Positions 7,201 to 62,099 of a DNA stretch of 64,000 nucleotides are shown piece after piece. The position numbers and the translations under genes were made by a program. The stretch is from the NCBI GenBank assembly GCA_028710605.1, contig JAQTTU010000010.1:1-64000 (forward strand), in the 5' to 3' direction. Each line of letters starts with the position of its first letter. Position 1 is the first letter of the stretch. The DNA is from Sideroxydans sp. (GTDB taxonomy: Bacteria; Pseudomonadota; Gammaproteobacteria; Burkholderiales; Gallionellaceae). Below the pieces are notes generated by a model. That model saw nothing but the letters and a program-made list of their open reading frames with translations. It ran no database searches and had not been told where the DNA came from.

Positions 7201-9533
<2,333 letters not shown>

Positions 9534-38305: not shown

Positions 38306-39019
38306 ATGCGTTTCAAACCTTACCTGTTGTTGGCAGGCTGCCTCGCCCTGACCGGTTGCAGTACCGTCCATCTCAGTGCCTACACGCAGGAAAAAGACCC
38401 GTTCGAGCCGTTCAACCGCAAGGTTTATGTGTTGAATGACACCGTGGATCAAGCGGTGCTCAAACCGGTTGCGCAGACTTACGCCAAGGTCATGCCCGTC
38501 CCGGTAAAAACGATGGTGAACAATTTCTTCTCCAATCTGGACGATGTCACGGTCACCGCCAACGATCTGCTGCAATTGAAATTTGCGCAAGCCGCCAGCG
38601 ACGGCAGCCGCGTATTGTTCAACAGCACGTTCGGTATTTTCGGTTTGCTCGATGTGACGACTCGCCTGGAAAAACACAATGAAGATTTCGGCCAGACCTT
38701 GGGCTATTGGGGATGCAACAGCGGGCCGTATCTGGTGATCCCGTTCTGGGGACCCAGCTCGGTGCGTGATGGCGCGGGCTTATATACGGACACCTACTTC
38801 AGCGTCATCAGCAACACCAATCACGTGCCGACGCGCAATTCGATGTGGGCGGTCAAGTCGTTCAACACCCGCGTCAACCTGCTGGATCAGGAAAAAGTAT
38901 TGGATGACGCGACCATTGACCGCTACAGTTTCTTGCGCGATGCCTACCTGATGCATAGACAGAATCTGGTGTATGACGGCAACCCGCCACGCACCAAATA
39001 CGATGAGTATGATGAGTAA
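38306..39019 (+). CDS. mlaA: MlaA/VacJ phospholipid transport lipoprotein
   Basis: An outer-membrane lipoprotein that removes misplaced phospholipids from the outer leaflet. The lipobox LALTGC (about residues 13-18) is followed by the VacJ core: DPFEPFNRKVYVLNDTVDQAVLKP (two stretches), LQLKFAQAASDGSRVLFNSTFGIFGLLD and EDFGQTLGYWGC..GPYLVIPFWGP. The length of 237 residues is normal. It lies apart from any mlaBCDEF genes, though it is often separate in other genomes. A clear terminator follows at 39024. Confidence 0.95.
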   Translation: MRFKPYLLLAGCLALTGCSTVHLSAYTQEKDPFEPFNRKVYVLNDTVDQAVLKPVAQTYAKVMPVPVKTMVNNFFSNLDDVTVTANDLLQLKFAQAASDGSRVLFNSTFGIFGLLDVTTRLEKHNEDFGQTLGYWGCNSGPYLVIPFWGPSSVRDGAGLYTDTYFSVISNTNHVPTRNSMWAVKSFNTRVNLLDQEKVLDDATIDRYSFLRDAYLMHRQNLVYDGNPPRTKYDEYDE

Positions 39020-39085: not shown

Positions 39086-39183
39086 CCTTCCCCCTGGCAG
39101 GGGGAAGGTTAGGATGGGGGTTGAGTGTGGGATGGTAGCGTTTCTACCCCCTCCCTAGCCCTCCCCCTGCAAGGGGGAGGGGA
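39086..39183. repeat. G/C-rich double palindrome, family A
   Basis: CTTCCCCCTGGCAGGGGGAAG and CCTCCCCCTGCAAGGGGGAGG flank a unique middle with outer arms GGATGGGGG and CCCCCTCCC. It lies between mlaA and htpX. Confidence 0.85.
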
Positions 39184-39282: not shown

Positions 39283-40164
39283 TTAGCGGCCTGCGCGCAA
39301 CGCTGCGATGCGCTCCTCCAGCGGCGGATGCGTCATGAACAGTCTGGAAAAACCGCCCTGACTGGAAATCGCCATCGCGGCCATGTTCTGCGGCATCGCG
39401 GCCACTTCGTGGTTGGCTTTCAGACGTTCCAGCGCAGCAATCATTTTCTGCCGACCAGCCAGGTTTGCACCGCCCGCATCGGCGCGGAATTCGCGCTGGC
39501 GCGAGAACCACATGACGATCATGCTGGCAAGAATGCCCAGCACGATTTGCGCGGCGATCTCGGCCACGAATGCGCCTATGCCGGGACCGTTGCGACCATC
39601 ATTCTTGAGCAGCACGCGATCCACCAGAATACCGAACAGCTTGGCGAAGAACACCACGAAGGTATTCACCACGCCCTGGATCAGCGCCAGCGTCACCATG
39701 TCGCCATTGGCCACGTGGCTCACTTCATGCGCCAGCACCGCTTCGGCTTCCTCGCGGCTCATGCTGTGCAACAGGCCGGTGCTCACCGCGACCAGCGCCG
39801 CGTTGCGGTTCCAGCCGGTGGCGAAGGCGTTCACATCGGGCGCGTCGTAGATCGCCACCTCCGGCATGCCGATGCCCGCTGCATCAGCCTGACGGCGCAC
39901 GGTTTCCACCAGCCAGCGCTCGGTCGGGTCTTGCGGATTCTCAATGACCTGCGCGCCCACCGACATCTTTGCCATCCACTTGGACATCAGCAGCGAAATG
40001 ATGGAACCGGAAAAACCGATCACCGCCGACATTACCATCAGCGCGTTGAAGTTGATCGCGCCGCTTTGATCCAGCACCCTGTCAACGCCCAGCAAACGCA
40101 GGGTGATGTTGATGACCAGCAACACCGCGATGTTGGTCAGGACGAATAAAAAGATACGTTTCAT
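39283..40164 (-). CDS. htpX: Membrane metalloprotease HtpX
   Basis: An inner-membrane zinc protease that degrades damaged membrane proteins. Two N-terminal membrane segments ([21 protein letters not shown] and [20 protein letters not shown]) precede the zinc motif HEVSH (about residue 140), and two more segments follow. The cue [11 protein letters not shown] gives the third zinc ligand (E of REFRADAGG). I chose ATG at 40164 (293 residues) over an earlier frame start because it matches the family N-terminus. Often under heat or envelope stress control; no such promoter was identified here. Confidence 0.95.
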
Positions 40165-40340
40165 GCCGCATTCTCCGTAAGTAAATTTTGTGCGCGACAC
40201 GACCACCGCGCGGTTCGCTACATGGGGCACACCTGCGCTTTTTCAAGCGTGGCTTCTGATTCCCATCCGCCGAATAAGTTCGCTTGCCTATTCTCTCATG
40301 CGGCACTAGCATTACCTGACAAATTTCATCAGGGATAGCC

Positions 40341-46606: not shown

Positions 46607-46684
46607 TAACTGGCCATTGGTGGCAATGCAGGAATCGGTGGAAGTTAAATTTCTCATTGTGTTAAAATCCTCCACATTGTTGTG

Positions 46685-46761
46685 AGCAAACTTCGGTTTG
46701 CGAAAACTCCGGCTCAATAAGGGCTTGTTGGACGGCGGTTCAATTCCGCCCATCTCCACCA
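46685..46761 (+). ncRNA. ssrA: tmRNA acceptor piece of a permuted ssrA gene
   Basis: A tRNA-like 3' end lies upstream of the tmRNA body: T-arm GGCGG-TTCAATTC-CGCC, acceptor strand CATCTCC, then ACCA with the CCA encoded (46759-46761). The acceptor strand pairs with GGGGATG at 46792-46798, with a G-U at the third pair, the alanine identity mark. The 5' part has a perfect UUCG-loop hairpin, GCAAAC-TTCG-GTTTGC. The order, acceptor piece before coding piece, shows a circularly permuted gene as known from some betaproteobacteria. A 30-nt linker (46762-46791) that folds as a hairpin separates the two pieces. The 5' end is approximate. Confidence 0.88.
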
Positions 46762-46791
46762 TAAGTGCAGTGATGCCAGTGCGCTTATGAT

Positions 46792-46957
46792 GGGGATGAC
46801 CAGGTTTCGACAGCGAGCAGATAGGTTTCGGGGCGACACGTCAGGCGATCGACGTAAATGAAGCAAGCATGTAAATGCAAACGATGAAAACTTTGCTATG
46901 GCGGCCTAAAAAACCGTTTAGCCGGGGCTGTTGAGCCTTGTCATACAACACAACTAG
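46792..46957 (+). ncRNA. ssrA: tmRNA coding piece of a permuted ssrA gene
   Basis: The piece starts GGGGATGACCAGGTTTCGACAG, split here as acceptor strand, D-loop region and start of P2. The tag reading frame runs from GCA at 46877 to TAA at 46909 and gives ANDENFAMAA, close to known betaproteobacterial tags such as ANDENYALAA. tmRNA rescues ribosomes stalled on broken mRNA and tags the peptide for degradation. The body is shorter than in one-piece tmRNAs, so at least one pseudoknot may be missing. The 3' end is approximate and is taken as the start of the next hairpin. Confidence 0.9.
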
Positions 46958-46999
46958 ATGAGCCTCGGGTGATAATGATCCCGGGGCTCATTGATTTTG
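46958..46999 (+). terminator. Hairpin at the end of ssrA
   Basis: ATGAGCCTCGGG pairs with CCCGGGGCTCAT around a ten-base loop and is followed by TGATTTTG. It may terminate the precursor; the T-tract is short. Confidence 0.6.
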
Positions 47000-58665: not shown

Positions 58666-59733
58666 TTACCACAACCAATACGGCGTTTGCATCCACGTGG
58701 CGACCACCACCACCCACACCAGCGTCAGCGGAATGAACACTTTCCAGCCCAAACGCATCAGTTGGTCGTAGCGATAACGCGGGAATGTCGCGCGGAACCA
58801 CAGGAAGACAAACAGCATGAAACTCATCTTGCCCAGCAACCAGAACAGACCGGGAATGGCATCCGTCAGCGCGCCCAGCAGCGGCCAGCCATGGAACGGG
58901 TTGAGCCAACCGCCGAGGAACATCACCGCAGTCAGGATTGCAATCAGCATCATGTTGGCGTATTCGGCTAGGAAGAACAGCGCGAAACCCATGCCGGAAT
59001 ATTCCACGTGGAAGCCCGCCACAATTTCCGACTCGCCTTCGGCCAAGTCGAACGGCGAACGGTTGGTCTCGGCCACACCGGCGATGAAATACACCACGAA
59101 CATCGGGAACAACGGAATGAAGTACCAGCCGAACAGGCCGTAGCCGCTCTGTTGTCCGCGCACGATTTCGCCCAGATTCATGCTCTGCGCCGCAAGCAGC
59201 ACGCACACCAGCGCGAAGCCCATCGCCAGTTCATACGACACGATCTGTGCGGCGGAACGCAACGCGCCGAGGAAGGCATACTTCGAGTTGGATGCCCAGC
59301 CGGCGATGATGATGCCGTAAACCCCGAGCGAGGTCATCGCCAGCAGGAACAGCAGCCCGGCATTCACATCCGCCAGAATCAGGCCGTCACCGAAAGGAAT
59401 CACCGACCATGCCGCCAAGGCGGGAGCAAGCGCCAGCGCGGGAGCCGCGATGAACAGGAACTTGTTGGCACCGGTCGGGATAATGATTTCTTTGCACAAC
59501 AACTTTACGCCGTCGGCGATGGGCTGCATTAGTCCCCACCAGCCCACGCGGTTGGGACCGGGACGAATCTGCATAAAGCCCAGCACCTTGCGCTCGGCCA
59601 GCGTCAGGTAAGCCACGCCTAGCATGAGCGGTGCAATGATGAGCACTATCTTCACCAGCGTCCAGATCGGCAGCCAGGCGGAACCGAACAGGTCCAGTCC
59701 CGTCTGTTGCAATGTTTGCAGCAGTTCCATCAT
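58666..59733 (-). CDS. nuoH: NADH dehydrogenase subunit H
   Basis: The membrane subunit forming much of the quinone chamber. Landmarks are [20 protein letters not shown] (about residues 44-63) and [26 protein letters not shown] (about 230-255). The length of 355 residues is normal. Its start overlaps the nuoG stop as ATGA. Confidence 0.98.
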
Positions 59734-62099
59734 GCGCGCTCCACTGAAATTGTTCCGAACATCGCACCCAGGGCGGCAGTCGCGGCATGGCCAGTCGCCA
59801 CACGCACCACGCCTTTGGGCAACTTATCGTCTGCCGCAGCAAGCAGCATCACACTGCCCTGCCCCTGGCTGACTTTGACTATCTCGCCCGCTTGCACGCC
59901 CAGCTTTTTCAACTCGTCGCTGTGCAACCATGCTTGCGGTGTCACTGCGTCGGCAGTGGCTTGCAATGGCGCGGAACGGCGCACCACGGCATCCGTGGCG
60001 TAGATGGGCACATCGCTCACGCGCTGCAAACCCGAGGATTGAGGAGAGAGGATTGAGGATTGAGTGGCGGCTTGCGACGCATTGTTCAATTTCGCCGGAA
60101 TGTCCATTCCGCCGATTGCCTCGTCGCGCACCGCTTCGGAAGTATCAAACTCGAAACCGTCCACCTTCAGCAAATTGCCCAACACGCGCAACACCTTCCA
60201 TGCCGGACGCGCTTCGCCCAAGGGCTTGACCGCGCCTTTGAAACTCTGCACGCGGCCTTCGCTGCTGATGAATGTGCCAGAAGTTTCGGTGAACGGCGCG
60301 ACGGGCAACAACACATCGGCATATTCCGTTGCCCGGTGTTTGTATGCGCTCATGGCGATCACCAGATCGGCAGCTTGCATGGCGGCGACGGCTTGCTGCG
60401 GGTTGGCACAATCCAGCTCCGCTTCCACATTCAACAACAGGTATGCCTTGCGCGGTGCGGCCAGCATGGATGCGGCATTCAAGCCTTTTGCACCCGGCGT
60501 GGCCTGCGCCAGATAGCCGCCCACACTGTTCGCCGCTTCGCCGAGGAATCCGAACTTGCCGTTGGTGGCCGCAGCGATTTGTTGCGCCAGCGCTTGCAGT
60601 TGCGCGGATTGCGGATGTTGCTGCGCGAAATTGCCGAGCAGCACCACGACGCGTTCGCCGCCGAGCAGACTGCCAGCAATGCCTTCGCTTTGTTTCGCTG
60701 CCACAGCCTTGGATACTTGCGTCAATGTCTCGACCAGCGCATCCGGCGCGACGATGGCTTTGTTTTCCACCTGCATCAACAGATCGTCATCGGCGGAATG
60801 AATAATGTTGGCTTGCGCGCCTTTTCTCACCGCGCGGCGGATACGCGCCGCCAGCAGCGGATGATCCTTGCGCAGGAAACTGCCGACGATCAATAACCGA
60901 TCTGCCTTGCCGATGTCGGCAATCGACATGCCCAGCCACGGCAGGAATTGTCTCGGCTCTCCTCCCGCAAGGGAGGAGACGTTTGCCCCTTCCCCCACTG
61001 GGGGAAGGTTGGGATGAGGGTTGTTACCTTGCTGTTTGCCGTCGGCGCTGAAATCGGATTGGCGCAGACGAAAATCGACGTTGTCGCTGCCGACGCCGCG
61101 CATGAGTTTTTGCAGCAAATAGAGTTCTTCCAACGTGGAGTTGGCGGTCGCCAATGCACCGACCTGCTCCGCACCCGCACCGTTGGCAAGGTGGCGCAGC
61201 CCGTTGGCCGCAAACTCCAGCGCGACCTGCCACGGCACTTCCTGCCATTGACCGTCTTTCTTGATCATCGGCTTGGTCAAACGGTCGGCGGAATTCAATC
61301 CTTCATAAGCGAACCTGTCCTTGTCGGACAGCCAGCATTCGTTGATGTCATCGTTTTCGATGGGGGTCACGCGCAACACGCGGTTGTTTTTGGTGTGCAC
61401 TGCCAGACTTGAACCGAGGCTGTCGTGCGCGCTCACCGAGCGGCGGCGCGACAATTCCCAAGAACGCGCCTTGTAGCGGAACGGTTTGCTAGTCAGCGCG
61501 CCGACCGGGCACAAGTCGATGATGTTGCCGGAGAGTTCGGAATTCACCGTGCCGGACACGAATGACATCACCTCGGCGTGTTCGCCACGGAAAGCTTGCC
61601 CCAGTTCCATTTGTCCGGCGACCTCCTGCAGGAAGCGCACGCAACGGGTGCAGTTGATGCAGCGGCTCATTTCTTCAGCCGACACCAGCGAACCCAAATC
61701 CTTGCCCAGCACCACGCGTTTTTCCTCGTGGTAGCGCGAATGTCCTCCTCCGTAACCGACCGACATATCTTGCAGCATGCACTCGCCGCCCTGATCGCAG
61801 ATCGGGCAATCCAGCGGATGGTTCACCAGCAGAAATTCCATCACGCCTTTTTGCGCTTTCACCGCCTGTTCGGAATGGGTGAACACTTTCATGCCTTCGG
61901 CCACCGGCGTGGCGCAGGCAGGCAGCGGCTTGGGCGCTTTCTCCACTTGCACCAGACACATGCGGCAGTTGGCGGCGATGGATAGTTTTTTGTGATAGCA
62001 GAAATGCGGAATGGTGATACCGGCCTGATGCGCGGCCTCGATCACGGTCGCCCCGTTTTGAGTCTGTATCTTTATGCCGTCGATTTCGATGTTAATCAT
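59730..62099 (-). CDS. nuoG: NADH dehydrogenase subunit G with in-frame repeat insertion
   Basis: The iron-sulfur-rich peripheral subunit of complex I. An N-terminal ferredoxin-like domain has the [2Fe-2S] ligands in HFCYHKK, CRMC and CATPV, followed by the HxxxCxxC cluster region ([18 protein letters not shown]) and [13 protein letters not shown]. The C-terminal part is a molybdopterin-oxidoreductase-like domain. After [11 protein letters not shown] (about residue 355) a family A palindrome is read in frame as [16 protein letters not shown] and about 13 further residues; relatives continue directly with the PWLGM segment. At 789 residues it is correspondingly long. Transcribed between nuoF and nuoH. 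Confidence 0.97.
60957..61022. repeat. Family A double palindrome inserted inside nuoG
   Basis: CTCCTCCCGCAAGGGAGGAG and CCTTCCCCCACTGGGGGAAGG with the outer arm GGTTGGGATGAGGG. The order and the linker between the two palindromes match the copy at 1474-1551. The element is open in the nuoG frame. Confidence 0.9.

Follow-up and report, generated by a model that had tools for sequence, protein, structure and literature searches.

An in-frame palindromic insert in nuoG of Sideroxydans sp. and the association of its repeat superfamily with DUF559 genes

The nuoG gene of a Sideroxydans sp. genome carries an in-frame insert that is a double-hairpin palindrome of a dispersed superfamily, and palindromes of this superfamily are found beside genes for DUF559 (Vsr-like) endonucleases. 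The insert is real, far above chance and, as far as the sampled genomes show, confined to its lineage. Position and abundance give strong support to the view that DUF559 and the palindromes belong together; that DUF559 moves the palindromes, and moved the nuoG copy, is inferred. Our explanation as a whole, in which the nuoG insert is a copy of a dispersed palindrome and DUF559 and the palindromes constitute a mobile unit with MITE-like derivatives, seems likely to us. Coordinates refer to the window, by which we mean the entire stretch of 64,000 nucleotides that was analyzed. Its features around the insert are:

59730–62099, minus strand: nuoG, 789 aa, carrying the in-frame insert (Pfam domains matched)
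60942–61025, minus strand: 84-nt insert encoding 28 residues, 359–386 (ortholog alignment, DNA empty site, AF2 model)
61020–61009, minus strand: head CCCTCATCCCAA, ahead of the first hairpin (sequence reading)
60988–61008, minus strand: first hairpin, CCTTCCCCC-AGT-GGGGGAAGG, stem 1 (sequence reading and fold)
60958–60979, minus strand: second hairpin, TCTCCTCCC-TTGC-GGGAGGAGA, stem 2, past a CAAACG linker (sequence reading and fold)

An earlier note on this DNA had proposed that NuoG contains about 28 residues beyond its usual pattern, and comparison with orthologues bears this out. Residues 359–386 take the place of a single orthologue residue, mostly alanine, with most orthologues reading QQG-A-PWLGM, so that the net gain is 27 codons. 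The insert is absent from all 59 orthologous loci that span the site, out of 60 retrieved from named genomes (the remaining one, L156, stops short of it); three of the 59 (L157, L159, L160) are only 28–31% identical and align loosely. The nearest orthologue, from Sideroxydans DeMMO3_12 (89%, L101), is also without it. At the DNA level, 84 nt stand for three in relatives such as L104, where the empty site reads CAGCAAGGC-GCG-CCGTGG. The target-site duplication that the note had suggested seeking at the insert ends was not visible at nuoG in the comparison with these empty sites.

As RNA, the insert folds into two hairpins at −44 kcal/mol, compared with −32.6 ± 3.6 for shuffled sequences (z = −3.2), and none of 200 shuffles was as good. 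For its 21-nt core, 3 matches were counted in the window, where 0.00 are expected. In an AF2 model built on 22 sequences, in which the Fe-S part is of low confidence, residues 354–383 have pLDDT values below 50 between confident flanks. The insertion and the open frame are read directly from the DNA, whereas translation is presumed; the insert is probably a surviving copy, translated into a disordered loop without known function. In one relative (L103), an ORF adjoining nuoG is 51% identical to the first 104 residues of NuoG and apparently represents a second NuoG-like N-terminal domain.

The repeat superfamily is abundant in this genome, a draft of 35 contigs. A related 21-mer, CCCTCACCCYARCCCTCTCCC, has 165 matches with at most three mismatches, compared with 17 for its reversed control, and the pattern CCYTCYCCCN(3-8)GGGRGARGG finds 272 palindromes per strand, compared with none for its control. 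The 431 kb of sequence that we retrieved (the window, the search loci and stretches picked around matches) contain 162 repeat cores, which we sorted by eye into at least four subfamilies. Family I consists of pairs with the stems outside and the heads facing inward; in 17 of 27 head-inward pairs, the core starts are 27 nt apart. The nuoG copy, which reads PHPNPLPxGEG in one frame, has a GCAAACG tail and a second hairpin in common with a set reading PHPNPLPxGEGAN(V/E)SLRE. A regular expression for this nuoG-like subfamily picked 16 copies, of which at least one was wrong, and missed several recognized by eye; we base no claim on it. GTAG, present at the palindrome head in many family-I copies, is absent from the nuoG copy. 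In its CCCTCACCCC form, the palindrome is GC-rich and, on reading the sequence, free of stops in five of six frames. Rfam has no family for the repeat, and at the gathering threshold the window yielded only tmRNA and SRP RNA. The tmRNA lies at 46667–46992 and matches both betaproteobacterial and permuted tmRNA models.

Further copies in the window are paired:

7203–7299, no strand assigned: family-I palindrome pair, stems outside and heads inward, whose right unit ends ligA (sequence matches)
7273–9459, minus strand: putative ligA ORF, named after the earlier note (ORF list)
39086–39181, no strand assigned: second family-I palindrome pair, between the ORFs 38306–39019 (plus) and 39283–40230 (minus) (sequence matches)

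The proposal that ligA and nuoG carry the same element holds in part. The two copies belong to one superfamily but to different subfamilies, the ligA copy being a member of the paired family I without the GCAAACG and second-hairpin tail of the nuoG copy, and “same family” is therefore true at the superfamily level only. Nor is LigA interrupted by an insertion: the repeat supplies its final residues, SPLQGEG, and its TAG stop.

A dicodon model, with 215 long ORFs as its training set, was applied to the 150 nt that flank each core on either side. Both flanks were coding on the same strand and in the same frame for 37 of the 162 cores, and on the same strand but in different frames for five, all of which lie at boundaries between two genes; four had flanks coding on opposite strands, 83 had one coding flank and 33 had none. 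Removing six second cores and two cores with a stop in view (C19:81980 and C9:68477, by reading also gene junctions) left 29 sites in 28 ORFs. In the retrieved segments of this genome, every one of the 29 is in frame and open through the repeat. Pfam matches were obtained for all 28 ORFs, counting matches anywhere in the ORF, and short gene names were assigned from domains and sequence. The ORFs encode CoaBC, an HI0933-like flavoprotein, BioF, a TgpA-type transglutaminase, a GluRS/GlnRS-like tRNA synthetase fragment, HisH, DnaE, Mfd, a PD-(D/E)XK protein, MetG, a complex-I/hydrogenase-like subunit, NuoG, a nitrogenase-type oxidoreductase, PolA, an S4-domain protein, LeuS, MetH, MoeA, FolC, a TamB-like protein, an ABC ATPase, an RND transporter, an AlkZ-like protein, MnmC (two sites), HrpA, a NUDIX-ThiE fusion, MurC and MurD. 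A candidate in ribBA (C17:89714) was dropped, its ORF being without a Pfam hit. Ten further copies lie outside the 29, one at the start of dapB and nine with one coding flank; one of the nine is the second core of the DnaE site, and another (C24:283478), in an ORF with MutS domains, may be another in-frame site.

In seven proteins compared with repeat-free homologues (NuoG, FolC, HrpA, MurC, MetG, BioF and DnaE), the residues of the insert are missing from the latter. Against solved homologues, MurC residues 348–372 fall into a gap between chain residues 332 and 335, MetG 315–345 into a gap between 287 and 291, and DnaE 464–515 into a gap between 577 and 584, while BioF has nine extra residues. 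The findings that by the earlier note would have refuted it thus did not materialize: there are 29 in-frame sites in 28 recognizable genes, and in the seven proteins compared the repeat-free homologues do not have the residues. Its suggestion that the element can enter coding DNA while keeping the frame open is supported.

The 37 cores with two coding flanks are spread over all six strand and phase classes, with 12, 9 and 3 on the strand of the core and 8, 3 and 2 on the other. Because cores are read in all six classes, no peptide is favored outright; we dropped the idea of one preferred reading frame, as only 12 of the 37 are in the PHPNPLP phase and the rest are spread. A loop in FolC is interrupted in this genome; a search of 34 genomes of the genus matched 32, and 9 of these have the loop occupied. 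In the seven in which we read its sequence, it contains four unrelated palindromes: family I, a CCCTCACC type, a GTAGGTCGGG palindrome and a GGATTCCCGCC palindrome. Among the relatives, L363, L364, L367 and L370 have unrelated palindromes of GTAG type and GGATTCCCGC type in frame in this loop. Empty FolC sites were inspected for target-site duplication only visually, in relatives whose divergence is too great for the purpose. Since all six phases are used and unrelated palindromes share the FolC loop, the apparent keeping of the frame is best read as the survival of harmless insertions: permissive loops and the purging of frame-breaking events explain the pattern. A separate repeat of about 55 nt (approximately GATGRAACYACTARCCAATCGACTAAGCCCGCAAGCGGGCAAGTCGCTGGTTATC) lies within the stem-loops of CCCTC palindromes, as if targeting them, at L224, L242, L332, L335 and L341, and a peptide related to it occurs in a second FolC insert of this genome (L028).

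The genome has four genes for DUF559 (PF04480), a Vsr-like endonuclease domain of the PD-(D/E)XK kind, all above the Pfam curated cut-off with E-values of 1.6e-31 or better. Three are flanked on both sides by palindromes of the superfamily and the fourth (L214) has a related pair on one side only. The family-I locus among them, L211, has a complete pair upstream and a single unit downstream, and is thus no simple two-ended cassette. The nuoG-type subfamily, with GCAAACG and second hairpin, bounds none of the four. In two relatives (L235, L237), a DUF559 gene lies between inward-facing ends of family-I type, as if it had replaced the spacer of a pair. Among solved structures, PDB 3hrl matches, with an E-value of 1e-28 for chain A.

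In a sample of 120 genomes of the family, DUF559 occurs in 83, with 168 matches. We examined the flanks of 73 of these (the four above, 29 returned by the search and 40 chosen by hand, half of the latter for lying in long ORFs), and 71 had full flanks. A pyrimidine-arm inverted repeat lies within 160 nt on both sides of 45 loci and on one side of the other 26, so that none is without one. Outside the family, the 29 best-scoring new loci have a palindrome on both sides in 14 cases, on one side in 14 and on neither in one (L311). Palindromes were found in 18 of 537 single control windows and 0 of 38 nuoG-end windows for the family and in 9 of 229 control windows outside it; these control rates (3–4%) are counted per window, whereas each DUF559 locus offers two. 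Among 61 loci (32 hand-picked from the family and the 29 from outside), the gene is faced by purine heads in 36 of 48 upstream palindromes and by pyrimidine heads in 36 of the 54 lying downstream, and the inward orientation is a majority, not a rule.

Abundance across genomes points the same way. In 298 Pseudomonadota genomes, with our own excluded, at least five palindromes were present in 58 of 76 genomes with a strong DUF559 match (E ≤ 1e-20) and in 15 of the 222 others, an odds ratio of 44, both cut-offs having been picked after seeing the data and the genomes not being independent of one another. When labels were permuted within the 16 taxonomic families that contain both kinds (177 genomes), none of 20000 permutations reached the observed value; by family, the direction was up in 12, down in two and tied in two. 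In the family sample, the corresponding proportions were 68 of 79 and 10 of 41. For the exceptions, namely the 18 strong-DUF559 genomes with fewer than five palindromes of the pattern used and the 15 others with at least five, candidate causes are other stem sequences, incomplete assemblies and loss of the DUF559 gene.

DUF559 cassettes also lie inside genes. In relatives, the domain is found in frame at two sites in HrpA, in the linker of MetG before the tRNA-binding domain, in TrpC-like and ribonucleotide-reductase-like ORFs, and in methylase-like ORFs of two kinds; these host names come from the flanking sequence and, for HrpA, also from Pfam. The HrpA insert of our genome itself contains a DUF559 domain (L213, G000:C8:29427-29750). 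Several Gallionellaceae have DUF559 at this same site (L213, L247–L250, L252, L254, L262, L263), with frames of up to 1676 aa, and several relatives have it in the MetG linker before the C-terminal tRNA-binding domain (L251, L253, L257–L259). Among 34 genomes of the genus, 12 have an interrupted HrpA site and 16 an unbroken one, while one is undecided and five gave no match. Ten of the 12 interrupted sites carry DUF559, and G037 has an unrelated pair of GTAG palindromes instead. Another relative, G052, has 14 DUF559 matches and 116 palindromes and would be a good genome in which to spot recent insertions.

The main rival to DUF559 as mobilizer is that it is a homing-type passenger, which targets pre-existing palindrome pairs and has its gene copied into or beside them, while another enzyme spreads the palindromes. 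A gene entering the spacer of pairs with fixed spacing (27 nt in 17 of 27) would yield the observed cassette, L211 adjoins a complete pair, and the association of DUF559 with the repeats is symmetric, without a direction of dependence. The nuoG-type subfamily, moreover, lacks a DUF559 copy in this genome, and because it bounds none of the four genes there, its presumed mobilizer is assigned through its likeness to the rest of the superfamily. Against homing, the search for such another enzyme among Y1 transposases produced no candidate, as detailed below, and we think homing rather unlikely.

The enzyme in question could have been a RAYT, a Y1 tyrosine transposase, with the palindromes being classical REPs. 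Family I indeed has a GTAG head in many copies and forms dimers, as REPs do (PMC3733652), this genome has Y1 transposase genes, and in relatives unrelated palindromes of GTAG type are found in the FolC and HrpA loops as well. However, no core lies within about 1.5 kb of any of the 10 Y1-transposase matches (9 places) of this genome. Over the 298 genomes the association is, if anything, negative, with at least five palindromes in 22 of 131 genomes with Y1 transposases and in 51 of 167 without (odds ratio 0.46), whereas all 71 DUF559 loci with full flanks in the family have a palindrome on one side or both. We therefore rejected RAYT as the mobilizer and regard this origin as improbable. Natural loop expansion, annotation error or an assembly artefact, to which the draft state of the genome in 35 contigs might lend some credit, can hardly explain an insert whose DNA belongs to a dispersed palindrome superfamily, which 59 of 59 orthologues do not have, whose pattern recurs at 29 sites in 28 genes, and which has a parallel in the different in-frame palindromes at one FolC loop of relatives; we consider such an explanation extremely improbable.

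In the reading we prefer, the palindromes and DUF559 would form a mobile unit, of which pairs and single palindromes may be non-autonomous, MITE-like derivatives. The nuclease might act at the hairpin ends or cut the target DNA, and repair would then copy the palindromic element into the target. Copies within genes would survive only where their length is a multiple of three, their frame is free of stops and their site is a permissive loop. More tentatively, and with slightly less than even confidence, we propose that a Vsr-like DUF559 gene between inverted palindromes represents a widespread, transposase-free bacterial mobile element, which copies itself and its gene-less derivatives and has added segments, or the whole nuclease domain, in frame to NuoG, DnaE, MetG and HrpA. 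Such additions to important proteins would recur because the GC-rich palindromes are nearly stop-free.

Among known systems, the original papers on the palindromic elements of Rickettsia (RPE) reportedly describe several families of palindromic repeats inserted in frame in many unrelated genes and read as new protein segments. Our repeats resemble these in being short and palindromic, in forming several families and in lying in frame in unrelated genes (29 of 29 in-gene sites), but are set apart from them: the sequence is probably different, the palindrome is GC-rich and the host is a free-living betaproteobacterium. REPIN/BIME-RAYT systems and MITEs likewise have palindromes paired at a fixed distance and a relative that bears a gene between similar ends; here, however, the gene codes for a Vsr-like nuclease, not for a transposase or Y1 enzyme, and no target-site duplication was seen. 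For family I, the gene-bearing relatives are L235 and L237, together with the pair and unit of L211, their autonomy being putative; for the nuoG subfamily, none with the same ends was found among the DUF559 loci examined.

In-frame insertion of RPE into ORFs is also cited in PMC3733652, which describes GTAG/CGTC-tagged REPs inside genes of several species as “REP-decorated” proteins. According to this source, over half of the intragenic inserts are dimers or groups, 20–30 residues are encoded, and the hosts include DnaE, DNA polymerase I, UvrA, DNA ligase and tRNA synthetases (PMC3733652). Their GTAG ends may provide TAG stops (PMC3733652), to which we liken the stop of LigA. RAYT is the mobilizer proposed there (PMC3733652), whereas in our case RAYT-type genes are unlinked and the DUF559 nuclease is linked. 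Its text mentions neither Sideroxydans, Gallionella nor DUF559. In-frame insertion of REPs and RPE is therefore already known and the nuoG insert is a further case.

What looks new is the link of such palindromes to DUF559 (Vsr-like) endonuclease genes. A literature search over titles and the beginnings of abstracts, with most subscription journals and bioRxiv preprints outside its coverage, returned no connection of DUF559 or Vsr-like nucleases to REPs and no PHPNPLP motif, and the titles of DUF559 papers did not mention repeats. The DUF559 genes have their Pfam domain in common with PDB 3hrl and with Caulobacter VsrA, to which the SOS response of cells lacking the cytosine methyltransferase ScmA was attributed in a published report, indicating that the domain can be active in vivo (PMC12907096). 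The main text of that report does not contain “palindrom” and does not discuss palindromic repeats (PMC12907096).

The spread of palindromic insertions elsewhere, in Rickettsia and some REP-rich genomes, has been ascribed to RAYT or left unexplained. The link between DUF559 and palindromes across the phylum offers a directly testable candidate for the spread of this common class of repeats, and a possible biological role for DUF559, a domain of unknown function. With at least 29 in-frame sites in named genes and none that breaks the frame, a single free-living genome serves as a natural survey of the loops at which important proteins permit insertion. Fusions that have brought a nuclease domain into HrpA, MetG and further proteins are likewise seen in nature.
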